Below are positions 3,340 to 29,811 of a stretch of DNA of 31,222 bases, piece after piece. A program made the translations under genes and the position numbers. The stretch's first letter is position 1. Each line of letters opens with the position of its first letter. The notes beneath the pieces were generated by a model that did not search any database, was not told the origin of the DNA, and saw nothing but the letters and a program-made list of their open reading frames with translations. The stretch covers positions 1 through 31,222 of the IMG/VR virus record IMGVR_UViG_3300042883_000588. One strand, 5' to 3'. The stretch is from a virus.

Positions 3340-3735
3340 ATGAAACAACACAATTTATTTGGAACAGAATTTAAAGACGATACCGAAAAAAAGTATTCTT
3401 CTAAAATTGAATCACCTATTTATGAGCCTAAAAATGCAAAGCCACATATTTTGGAACTTTGTAACAAAGAAAAAACTCATAGATTGATTCGTGAAATTGA
3501 TTCTTCAAGTTTACCGATCGAAGAAAAAACATTTTTGATTGATGCAGCACGAAGGCATAATGTATTTAACTATGAAAAGATTGCAGAGTATTACGCACAT
3601 TCAAATAAAGAAATGCAAGAATTAATGGAAAAATCTTCTTTGGTAATCATTGATTTTGAAAAGGCTATTCAATTAGGCTATGTTAAACTTTGTGATGAAA
3701 TAAGAACTCAATATCTTGAAGAATATGGAGAATAA
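3340..3735 (+). CDS. conserved-looking phage protein upstream of the glycosyltransferase
   Basis: 131 aa. The N-terminus (NLFGTEF, acidic and polar) looks disordered. From about residue 38 a compact helical domain follows (KPHILELC, LIREIDSSSLP, FLIDAARRHNVFNYEKIAEYYAH, LMEKSSLVIIDFEKAIQLGYV). I do not recognise a named family. The AT-rich coding sequence and the 11-base overlap with the TAGT-like gene suggest the two genes work together or moved together. A near-consensus -7 element (TATATTTA, 3318-3325) lies 14 bases upstream of the ATG. Confidence 0.7.
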   Translation: MKQHNLFGTEFKDDTEKKYSSKIESPIYEPKNAKPHILELCNKEKTHRLIREIDSSSLPIEEKTFLIDAARRHNVFNYEKIAEYYAHSNKEMQELMEKSSLVIIDFEKAIQLGYVKLCDEIRTQYLEEYGE

Positions 3736-4555
3736 AGATTTTGCGGTGTTTATATTAACACATGGCAGACCTAACAATGTAAAAACATTAAGCACTTTAA
3801 AAAAGTGTGGATATACTGGTAAAATTTATTTTATTGTAGATAATGAAGATAAAACTATTGAGCAATATCAAAATAATTACGGAATTGAAAACGTGAAAAT
3901 ATTTGATAAAAAAGCAATGGCTGATAGTATTGACGAAGGAAACAATTTTAATAATAGGAAAGTAATTATTCACGCAAGAAATGCTTGTTTTAATATAGCT
4001 AAAGAATTAGGAATAACATATTTTGTTCAATTTGATGACGATTATTATTATTTTGGATATAGATATGATACTGGTGCTAAAATCATAAAGAATTTAGATA
4101 GTGTATTTAATTCAATGCTAAAATTTTATAAATCAACAAATATAAAATCAATATGTTTTTCACAAGGTGGCGATCACATAGGAGGTTTTAGTGGAATAAA
4201 ACTTAAAAGAAAAGCAATGAACTCTTTTTTTTGTTCAACAGATAGACCTTTTGAATTTGTTGGAAGTATAAATGAAGATGTAAATACATATACATCTTTA
4301 GGGTGTAAAGGAAATTTATTTTTTACTTTTACAAATATACAGCTTGACCAAAAAGACACGCAAAGCAATAATGGTGGAATGACTGACGAATATGCTTTGA
4401 CTGGAACTTACATAAAATCTTTTCATAGTGTTTTAATGCACCCTTCAGGTGTAAGGGTTTCAATGATGAATAGTAATAACCCAAGATTACATCATTCAAT
4501 TAAATGGATTAATACAACTCCTATGATACTTGACGAAAAGTTTAAAAAATATTAA
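3725..4555 (+). CDS. TAGT-like (TET-associated/GREB1-related) glycosyltransferase
   Basis: 276 aa from the ATG at 3725; a TTG three codons upstream is less likely. GT-A-like features are in order: FILTHGR at 9-15 (nucleotide-sugar loop), IYFIVDNED at 34-42, HARN at 83-86, and FDDDYYYF at 103-110 (DxD-type metal/sugar site). This is the pattern I associate with TET-associated glycosyltransferases, proposed to add sugars to modified bases in phage DNA. It overlaps the preceding gene. No TET/JBP dioxygenase or hydroxymethylase is visible in the window, so the acceptor is unknown. The gene is strikingly AT-rich: the 60 bases at 4081-4140 hold 10 G/C, against 27 at 5221-5280 in the helicase gene. 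That suggests recent acquisition. Confidence 0.65.
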   Translation: MENKDFAVFILTHGRPNNVKTLSTLKKCGYTGKIYFIVDNEDKTIEQYQNNYGIENVKIFDKKAMADSIDEGNNFNNRKVIIHARNACFNIAKELGITYFVQFDDDYYYFGYRYDTGAKIIKNLDSVFNSMLKFYKSTNIKSICFSQGGDHIGGFSGIKLKRKAMNSFFCSTDRPFEFVGSINEDVNTYTSLGCKGNLFFTFTNIQLDQKDTQSNNGGMTDEYALTGTYIKSFHSVLMHPSGVRVSMMNSNNPRLHHSIKWINTTPMILDEKFKKY

Positions 4556-7913: not shown

Positions 7914-8061
7914 ATTAAAAGATAAGATTCAAAACCTTGACACAATCATGGTTATGCTTGAAATACTTCAGCTTCTTGACGATGTTGACTTATTAGGCAA
8001 TTCAATACCAATGAAAATAAAGGTGATTAATAAGATTGATTTGTTAATTGACAAAGTATGA
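7894..8061 (+). CDS. 55-aa helical protein of unknown function
   Basis: ATG at 7894, inside the end of the previous gene; the stop overlaps the ParB-like start (ATGA). It is a mostly helical, leucine-rich peptide (LKDKIQNLDTIMVMLEILQLLDDVDLLG, then KVINKIDLLIDKV) that could be a short coiled coil. No family recognised. The overlap at both ends is the main support. Confidence 0.5.
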   Translation: MAEKTSELKDKIQNLDTIMVMLEILQLLDDVDLLGNSIPMKIKVINKIDLLIDKV

Positions 8062-8561
8062 TCGAGAAAGTAAAGATTGAATCGGTTAAAGCTAATCCTA
8101 ATAATCCGAGACTAATTAAAGACGATAAGTTTAGAAAGCTTGTCAAGTCAATTAATGAGTTTCCAGAGATGTTACAACTTAGACCGATTATCGTTAATAG
8201 TGATATGATTGCACTTGGTGGTAATATGCGTTTAAAGGCTTGTAAAGAAGCTGGACTTAAAGAGGTGTATATTATCAAGGCTTCTAATTTAAACGAAGCA
8301 CAACAAGCTGAATTCGTTATTAAAGACAATGTAGGCTTTGGCGAATGGGATTGGGATTTAATAGCTAATGAATACGATGAACACGATTTGCGAAGCTGGG
8401 GGTTAGATTTACCTGTATTTGATACCGAAGCAGTAAACGAATTAGAAGACGAAAACTATATTAAGATTTCAATCGAAGCGACAAACAACGCTTTTATCGA
8501 AATGAATGAAAAGCTTCAAAATATCTGTGACGAATATAGTGCTATTATGAAAGTAAAGTGA
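8058..8561 (+). CDS. ParB-like nuclease/NTPase-domain protein
   Basis: 167 aa. Residues 13-70 follow the ParB N-terminal pattern: NPNNPR (14-18), KLVKSINEF, RPIIVNSD and GGNMRLKACKEAGL (54-67), the nucleotide-binding GxxR box. ILKASN/AEFVIKDN-like text and GEWDWD then match phage ParB-like proteins often found beside DNA methyltransferase or terminase genes. It has no helix-turn-helix partition domain, so it is not a partition ParB. The C-terminal 45 residues are acidic and family-free. It may act in DNA modification or packaging; the exact role is unknown. Confidence 0.8.
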   Translation: MIEKVKIESVKANPNNPRLIKDDKFRKLVKSINEFPEMLQLRPIIVNSDMIALGGNMRLKACKEAGLKEVYIIKASNLNEAQQAEFVIKDNVGFGEWDWDLIANEYDEHDLRSWGLDLPVFDTEAVNELEDENYIKISIEATNNAFIEMNEKLQNICDEYSAIMKVK

Positions 8562-20623: not shown

Positions 20624-20657
20624 AGAAGGTGGGGTTTAAAAGCCCCATCCTCTTTTT
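20624..20657 (+). terminator. strong terminator between convergent genes
   Basis: An 11-position stem, AGAAGGTGGGG (20624-20634) with CCCCATCCTCT (20643-20653), with one mismatch and one G-U, then T to 20657. The stop codon of the leftward gene at 20636 lies in its loop, so the leftward transcript ends in the same hairpin. Confidence 0.85.
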
Positions 20658-20905
20658 ATGTTTATTCCAGCTTCGCCAAACGAAGTGTTATTATCATTGT
20701 ATTCAAGATGAACATCGTGCATCATGTCAAGAATGTTTTCACCTTCTTTCAACAAAGTTTCTTCTAAAAAATTAGCATACTTGGTAAGTAATTGACCAAA
20801 GTGCTTGGTTGTAATTAATGCGTGATAAACTTCTGCTTTGGTGTCTGAAGCAGGTAAGTCATTAAACTTTTTAACGTAGTCTTTATGTAGCTTAGTCCAA
20901 ATCAT
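20636..20905 (-). CDS. leftward operon gene 3, unknown function
   Basis: 89 aa from the ATG at 20905; 12 more upstream codons are open, but they overlap the preceding gene. Helical (WTKLHKDYVKKFNDL, KAEVYHALITTKHFGQLLTKYANFLEETLLKEG) with a short variable C-terminus. The stop is inside the convergent terminator. It is the last of three leftward genes, the only ones on this strand in the window. No family recognised. Confidence 0.65.
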   Translation of the reverse strand: MIWTKLHKDYVKKFNDLPASDTKAEVYHALITTKHFGQLLTKYANFLEETLLKEGENILDMMHDVHLEYNDNNTSFGEAGINIKRGWGF

Positions 20906-21119
20906 ATTCAAATAATTTATCAATTTCAAAGTAACCAACATTTACGTTATTGTAATAATGGCTTCCAATACTTAAAATGGTATCATAAAGCAAATCAGAA
21001 ATAAATTTCTTTTCTTGCAAATCAGTAAAAAGTTTTTCCATTGTATTTGGAAATAGTTCTTGTTGAATAATTAATTTTTCAAGAACTTCAGGATTTAGGC
21101 GATCAAATAATGTTTTCAT
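20892..21119 (-). CDS. leftward operon gene 2, unknown function
   Basis: 75 aa. Begins MKTLFDRLNPEVLEKLIIQQELFP, then a mostly helical, acidic sequence ending EIDKLFEYDLD. It overlaps gene 1 by 17 bases and gene 3 by 14, so the three are translated together. No recognised domain. The acidic surface would suit a protein-protein role (for example inhibition of a host protein), but this is a guess. Confidence 0.65.
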   Translation of the reverse strand: MKTLFDRLNPEVLEKLIIQQELFPNTMEKLFTDLQEKKFISDLLYDTILSIGSHYYNNVNVGYFEIDKLFEYDLD

Positions 21120-21225
21120 TGTGTTCGATTCTTTTAATATTGTTCATAATCCAGTTAATTAAAATAGCGAATAATAGACCAGCTACTATCGGCAATGAGC
21201 AAAAAATAAAGGTGATTAAATTCAT
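21103..21225 (-). CDS. leftward operon gene 1, small membrane protein
   Basis: 40 aa from the ATG at 21225, which sits behind an A-rich leader (the frame stays open for 47 codons upstream, through decayed DNA). One membrane helix (NLITFIFCSLPIVAGLLFAILINWI), then a charged tail (NNIKRIEHNENII). Topology is probably N-out/C-in. First gene of the leftward operon. A single-helix phage membrane protein can serve in exclusion or signalling; nothing in the sequence decides. Confidence 0.55.
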   Translation of the reverse strand: MNLITFIFCSLPIVAGLLFAILINWIMNNIKRIEHNENII

Positions 21226-21245
21226 ATCTTTTTGTTTAGTGTTTT

Positions 21246-21253
21246 CAAAAGTA
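21246..21253 (-). promoter_or_regulatory. -7 element of the leftward promoter
   Basis: Read on the minus strand, TACTTTTG matches TAnnTTTG, 20 bases before the leftward ATG at 21225. I see no TTG at the usual -33 spacing. It is the only plausible start signal for the leftward genes. Confidence 0.5.
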
Positions 21254-21318
21254 AATTTAATAATTGATATAAAAAAATTTATTTTAAAATATATTTTTCG
21301 ACATACTTTCGTGATAGT

Positions 21319-21490
21319 TTCTTGATACTTTCGGTAAAGTTTAGTGAAACGTTGGAGGTTTTTCAAAATAAAACGCAGAAAATAATTTTGTAATCTATTG
21401 ATTGTTAAGATATTACAAAAAATGTAACGTGTTCGGAATTCGTTCGTAACGCTTGTAAAGTAAAGTAAAGTAAATAGATATATATATATA
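21319..21490 (+). pseudogene. decayed copy of part of the DUF4373-type gene (2693-3316)
   Basis: Nucleotide similarity in the same order as the functional gene. TAAAGTTTAGTGAAAC (21335-21350) matches 2949-2964. AAAACGCAGAAAATAATTTT aligns with about 2986-3001. AATGTAACG (21421-21429) matches 3035-3043. GTAAAGTAAAGTAAAGTAAAT aligns with about 3070-3093. Spacing between blocks agrees to within a few bases. All frames are broken by stops. It fills the intergenic gap between the leftward operon and 21526, which otherwise shows only AT-rich DNA and promoter-like sites. Confidence 0.5.
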
Positions 21491-29680: not shown

Positions 29681-29811
29681 TAAATATGAAGATACTTGAA
29701 GAAAAAGCAATTGAAAACAAAAAGATTAAAGGATTAATGAAGCTAAAGATTATAAAAGAAGCAGAACTTCAAGTGATAGTTATGGAATTACGTAAATTAA
29801 TACAGAAATGA
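29677..29811 (+). CDS. 44-aa coiled-coil peptide
   Basis: ATG at 29677 overlaps the previous stop (ATGA) and the stop overlaps the next start (ATGA). A second ATG at 29686 is possible. Lys/Glu/Leu-rich (ILEEKAIENKKIKGLMKLK, VMELRKLIQK), a likely single helix or short coiled coil. No family recognised; the double overlap is the support. Confidence 0.5.
   Translation: MINMKILEEKAIENKKIKGLMKLKIIKEAELQVIVMELRKLIQK

Follow-up and report, generated by a model that had tools for sequence, protein, structure and literature searches.

A TAGT-family glycosyltransferase and its constant partner gene as a candidate DNA-glycosylation cassette of phages

Introduction

On what does a TAGT-family glycosyltransferase act when no enzyme that would prepare a base for glycosylation is visible beside it, and by what means would it be brought to its target? 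This question is raised by two overlapping genes in an IMG/VR virus record of 31,222 bp (hereafter the window), whose completeness is uncertified and which contains replication, packaging, head, tail and lysis-like genes. The TAGT name reportedly originates with Iyer et al. 2013. An initial annotation of the window had placed the pair on an AT-rich island and considered it the window’s best candidate for an undescribed DNA-modification or anti-restriction system. The TAGT of phage T6 has a GT-A fold and adds glucose onto alpha-glucosyl-hmC in DNA (PMC13216743). The same NAR 2026 study reported ‘solitary TAGT’ phages, 288 of 753 genomes, which carry neither an alpha- nor a beta-GT and were left unexplained (PMC13216743).

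Results

Two overlapping genes under purifying selection

The features considered here are collected in Table 1. The THGR, VDNED and DDDY motifs by which the initial annotation had recognised a TAGT-like gene are all present in the downstream ORF, and this ORF matches Pfam PF20691 (TAGT) far above the curated cut-off (E 1.8e-35, 123 bits against 27.5) and phrog_842 at 8.6e-68. In both TAGT alignments (52 and 45 sequences) R18, D108, D109, Q150, G152, D153, R165, K166, N169, D188, H259 and H260 were invariant, with G17, D42 and D45 nearly so (45–52 homologues). A structure model (pLDDT 85, pTM 0.86) led Foldseek to GT-A enzymes at E ~1e-5 and a TM of only ~0.45, and a PDB sequence search gave nothing useful for this protein or its partner. 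By profile and fold the enzyme is a TAGT, yet it is not TET-associated.

Table 1. Features of the window, with positions counted from its first letter
Feature	Position	Strand	Remarks
Partner protein, 131 aa	3340..3735	+	phrog_620 C-terminal domain, ParB_N absent; proposed tether between TAGT and sliding clamp
Q3-H4-N5-L6-F7, candidate beta-sliding-clamp-binding motif	3346..3360	+	Disordered partner N-terminus
Conserved all-helical partner domain (residues 26-131)	3415..3732	+	Alignments; AlphaFold model with 5 helices
TAGT-family glycosyltransferase, GT-A-like fold	3716..4555	+	279 aa from TTG 3716; alternative ATG 3725
Separate ParB_N-domain protein	8058..8561	+	Upstream of HNH and terminase genes; PF02195 3.5e-6

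Both ORFs are real genes. Purifying selection was detected on the TAGT gene (dN 0.05–0.07 against dS 0.84–1.01) and on the partner gene (dN 0.08–0.15 against dS 0.67–1.76, dN/dS ~0.1). They overlap by 20 nt if TAGT starts at the TTG and by 11 nt if it starts at the in-frame ATG, which is the start in the majority of relatives; the genes of the pair overlap in most of the 229 loci described below, with an identical 19-nt overlap in 120.

The low G+C content of the pair region was confirmed by measurement (27.4% against 33.8% for the whole window, 0.7th percentile), but the region is not unique, as the stretch at 20.6–21.9 kb is equally AT-rich. Because of this second stretch, and because composition alone is weak evidence, we rejected the view that the AT-rich island proves a recent import. 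Within the second stretch, positions 20636–21400 (~27.5% G+C) contain minus-strand ORFs in an otherwise plus-strand genome, with no convincing family match. Elsewhere in the window, a protein encoded at 29808–30203 matches PF18909, the N-terminal domain found in dATP/dGTP diphosphohydrolases (2e-13), and is possibly a nucleotide-pool enzyme.

The partner gene accompanies TAGT in 229 of 231 surveyed loci

The upstream gene at 3340 had been described as belonging to no known family. It in fact belongs to phrog_620 (‘ParB-like partition protein’), of which its product represents the C-terminal domain; the match covers positions 120–215 of 217 only (E 2.4e-8), and the ParB_N domain is absent. Linkage was surveyed by profile searches across 231 loci, which came from viral contigs, isolated phages and bacterial genomes. 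Both genes were present in 229, where TAGT thus accompanied every 3340 homologue; the partner domain was never found without TAGT, and the two loci with TAGT but no partner both lie on contigs cut at their ends. This strongly supports the earlier proposal of a partner or specificity role for 3340, and as judged from these comparisons TAGT is inseparable from the 3340 protein.

The pair was detected in Bacteroidota, Bacillota, Pseudomonadota, Cloacimonadota, Kiritimatiellota and others, and also in an archaeal virus. The initial annotation was right in the direction in which it looked. The pair is no oddity of the window, since it occurs across many phyla. No account of the pair was found in the literature searched; the 2013 DNA-modification paper may mention ParB neighbours.

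A longer ParB-like homologue, with ParB_N ahead of the shared domain, lies against TAGT in Salmonella SPF_0923, Lactobacillus jlb1 and phiLdb, Nocardia NTR1, halovirus HHTV-2 and Porphyromonas phage005b, while a Vibrio phage has the partner domain standing alone. The partner starts with ParB_N in the majority of distant relatives, and in the window’s clade ParB_N is missing. The part common to all forms is the helical domain, in which R72, H73, A82, Y85 and D105 are highly conserved and which is likely to be the TAGT-binding part. The AlphaFold model of the partner gave no confident PDB fold match. Nothing pointed to 3340 as the absent base-modifying enzyme; a hidden base-hydroxylating enzyme was rejected on the all-helical structure, together with the lack of a catalytic-family match and of a PDB fold match.

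Some TAGT genes depart from the usual form. The proteins encoded at L041:5026-6153 and L060:6007-7143 have ~100 additional C-terminal residues of no known family. In Lactobacillus phage phiLdb (L240:848-1713) two ORFs make up a split TAGT, and LL-Ku and Ld17 gave partial matches only (query residues 126–271 and 126–230); the TAGT gene may therefore be decaying in L. delbrueckii phages.

The partner N-terminus carries either a clamp-type motif or ParB_N

Residues 1–25 of the window’s partner are predicted to be disordered (pLDDT < 50), with the five helices following thereafter. This segment contains QHNLF, and a Qxx[LM]F motif was found in the first 14 residues of 118 of the 130 short forms, against a background rate of 5 N-terminal occurrences in 2,238 ORFs (0.2%). 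Among the long forms it occurred in 1 of 46, and this exception, L207, counts as long only because an open frame extends what is a short form. No protein was found with both the motif and ParB_N; the short forms L156 and L161 are without the motif. On the TAGT tree, many inner branches of which are weakly supported, nine changes between motif and ParB_N were needed.

Around an unchanging Q, L/M and F, position 2 can be I, V, T, F or A and position 3 can be N, S, T or D, and G and acidic residues come after the motif, as is characteristic of short linear motifs. The clamp-binding consensus is Q-phi-x-[LM]-[FL], with QLNLF in Pol V, and Hda likewise has its clamp motif in a disordered N-terminus (PMC11139829). 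As a sequence pattern, Q-x-x-[LM]-F fits the bacterial sliding-clamp-binding motif; the window’s own version agrees at Q, L and F but has His at position 2, where an aliphatic residue is usual and where its relatives mostly have Ile or Val. Bacteroides DnaE, used as a motif control, had no strict Qxx[LM]F, but NSLFG or MSLFG at the equivalent place followed by acidic residues, so that the host clamp may prefer another pattern. This result, the His at position 2 and the short forms without the motif count against clamp binding.

The window also encodes a separate ParB_N protein (8058 ORF), which resembles the N-terminal half of the long forms (phrog_620 N-half, 2e-22) and matches phrog_498 (ParB-methyltransferase) better (2.5e-27). 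A compulsory ParB_N acting in trans was rejected: PF02195 was found in just 13 of 47 records, few short-form phages among them. Given this distribution and the better phrog_498 match, any link of the 8058 protein to the pair is uncertain.

Replication and packaging genes adjoin the pair

The two N-terminal types differ in their surroundings. Of ten sampled ParB forms, seven have the terminase large subunit just downstream; in ten sampled clamp-motif forms, helicase, primase or clamp genes were seen in five and terminase in two. Sliding clamp genes themselves lie 13 nt after TAGT in L162, 8 nt after the partner in L067, overlapping the partner upstream in L069, 1.2 kb away in L164 and 4.7 kb off in L145, a member of the window’s clade whose clamp scores above cut-off for each of the three clamp Pfam domains. 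Three of the other four match Pfam only weakly or below threshold, and that of L069 was recognised only via a profile of those three. Clamp neighbours are thus confined to five lineages, and the pair genes are often in replication regions anyway, which counts against reading the neighbourhood as a sign of clamp binding. Taken together, the exchange of motif and ParB_N and the clamp and terminase neighbours fit, and suggest, delivery of TAGT to DNA by two interchangeable devices.

The same neighbours would also suit a protein as target, with the partner bringing TAGT to the clamp, replisome or terminase and the sugared protein redirecting replication or packaging during host takeover. With a clamp motif, the clamp could just as well be the substrate to which TAGT is brought, and gene positions beside clamps or terminase agree with this. 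The NCBI name of the E. coli TAGT is ‘GREB1-related’, and the reported substrate of GREB1 is a protein. The ParB_N forms, however, carry a DNA-associated domain and are better explained by a DNA target, and the TAGT of T6, the only biochemically defined relative, acts on DNA (PMC13216743). We regard a protein target as distinctly unlikely.

Sugar-nucleotide genes were found next to some copies, with UDP-galactopyranose mutase directly after TAGT in L168 and in L164, a locus that has three TAGT copies; in L078 the gene after TAGT encodes an NAD-dependent epimerase. It is therefore likely that some members use UDP-galactofuranose or another epimerised sugar as donor; no sugar-nucleotide gene was recognised in the window. 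Three TAGT paralogues occur with a sliding-clamp homologue at L069:2136-6849 and L164:4221-9629, the mutase being part of the L164 cluster, and these clusters may build branched or mixed sugars.

Such neighbours, and a GT-A fold like that of sugar-polymer enzymes, are what might be expected of a cell-surface glycosyltransferase involved in lysogenic conversion or superinfection exclusion. This explanation is highly improbable in view of the obligate partner with its ParB_N or clamp motif, the position in replication or packaging operons and the occurrence in an archaeal virus, and no membrane or flippase partner was seen in the annotated neighbourhoods.

No base-modifying enzyme and no third gene accompany the pair

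The initial annotation had seen no TET/JBP, hydroxymethylase or thymidylate synthase homologue, and profile searches of the window agreed. TET_JBP (PF12851) was absent from the window and from all 47 records, in a search for which no positive control matched. Thymidylat_synt (PF00303) was absent from the window and from 46 of the 47 records, the single exception being a Vibrio phage with an annotated thymidylate synthase and dihydrofolate reductase. C5-type DNA_methylase and N6_N4_Mtase were likewise missing from the window and present in one and four of the 47 records, respectively, and the window has no match to AGT (PF11440, T4 alpha-glucosyltransferase), for which the T6 positive control scored 1.1e-260. 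There is thus no recognisable hmC or hmU route in the window, the isolates or most relatives.

A hidden third gene was sought by all-against-all comparison of the window with six isolates whose hosts differ widely (complete genomes for four of them, 50 kb each for HHTV-2 and NTR1). The only families common to all seven genomes were the partner and TAGT; other matches were antisense frames of the pair genes or an anti-repressor common to three, and the idea of a third gene was rejected.

These results bear on a two-step hypermodification, in which a base hydroxylated by a host enzyme or an unrecognised phage enzyme would be glycosylated by TAGT, as in T-even or TET phages. To our knowledge, known DNA glycosyltransferases require a hydroxymethyl or sugar hydroxyl acceptor, and a thymidylate-synthase-family gene adjoins the T6 TAGT, both of which speak for such a pathway. 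The near absence of candidate first-step enzymes from the 47 records and the lack of a third shared family nevertheless make it unlikely in our estimation.

Discussion

We have examined a TAGT gene and the partner gene that accompanies it across a broad range of phages. The interpretation that we favour, and hold to be moderately probable, is that they form a mobile two-gene phage DNA-glycosylation cassette in which the partner tethers TAGT to phage DNA, using either a ParB domain or the sliding clamp. That the partner binds TAGT and the clamp, and that DNA is the target, is what we infer from the comparisons. The helical domain of the 3340 protein would bind TAGT and its N-terminus would deliver the enzyme to DNA. 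In the window’s clade, the N-terminal MKQHNLFG would act as a sliding-clamp-binding peptide, so that TAGT may travel with the host clamp behind the fork, modifying phage DNA as it is newly made; in the majority of the remaining phages, delivery would fall to a ParB_N domain encoded beside terminase. TAGT would move the sugar from an NDP-sugar to DNA, with the window drawing on a host NDP-sugar, and the DNA sugar would probably protect against restriction or other nucleases. As acceptor, either an unmodified base may be sugared directly or a group may be supplied by a host enzyme or an unrecognised phage enzyme. That no acceptor-making enzyme was found by profile searches of the window and its relatives counts against the cassette. 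A bolder version, in which the pair is self-sufficient and processively sugars an unmodified base in polymer DNA via the sliding clamp or a ParB-type domain, is put forward tentatively as a possibility that we consider plausible but not probable. For DNA modification as the role, as the initial annotation had proposed, the support is indirect: it comes from the ParB_N and clamp motif, the replication and packaging neighbours and the precedents in T6 and T4.

The T6/T2 beta-glucosyl-HMC-alpha-glucosyltransferase shares PF20691 with the window’s enzyme (T6 1.4e-10). Unlike the window, T6 has a thymidylate-synthase-family gene adjacent to TAGT, an alpha-GT in the same genome and no detected partner domain, and its TAGT is missed by the window-clade profile. 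Since the T6 enzyme is so distant, its DNA target is not automatically transferable to the window’s TAGT. A closer functional parallel is offered by the T4 alpha-GT, which binds the sliding clamp gp45 (PMC13216743) and is thus a DNA glucosyltransferase recruited to the clamp, as proposed here. It differs in having a GT-B fold, an unrelated sequence, hmC as acceptor and direct contact between enzyme and clamp. ParBc proteins occur on many CmoX contigs, in a role that is unclear (PMC12783734), and phage ParB_N domains fused or linked to DNA methyltransferases, like those of CmoX, are further cases of ParB_N near DNA-modifying enzymes. What sets the window’s family apart is that ParB_N is attached to a TAGT-partner domain and can give way to a candidate clamp-binding peptide.

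The ‘solitary TAGT’ phages are probably the same group as the pair, viewed from the TAGT side. That description included neither ParB nor a partner gene (PMC13216743), and the partner, the clamp motif and the ParB_N exchange come from the present comparison, which offers for these phages a constant partner and a specific mechanism to consider. More generally, our results suggest that the tether delivering a DNA-modifying enzyme may be exchangeable, with ParB_N serving in some cases and a sliding-clamp-binding peptide in others. Should a canonical base be the acceptor, this would be a new DNA modification chemistry with no prior hydroxymethylation and, if true, one that spans bacterial and archaeal phages and many E. 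coli prophages.

The question is testable because at least 80% of the query region is present in 889 of 5,426 complete E. coli genomes (~16%), where the pair sits between trkG and terminase. In E. coli AML003_par a K-12-like Rac-type prophage retains only a truncated ynaK (the ParB_N part) followed by ydaY (L233:5043-5646), unlike many other E. coli, which have full copies of the pair.
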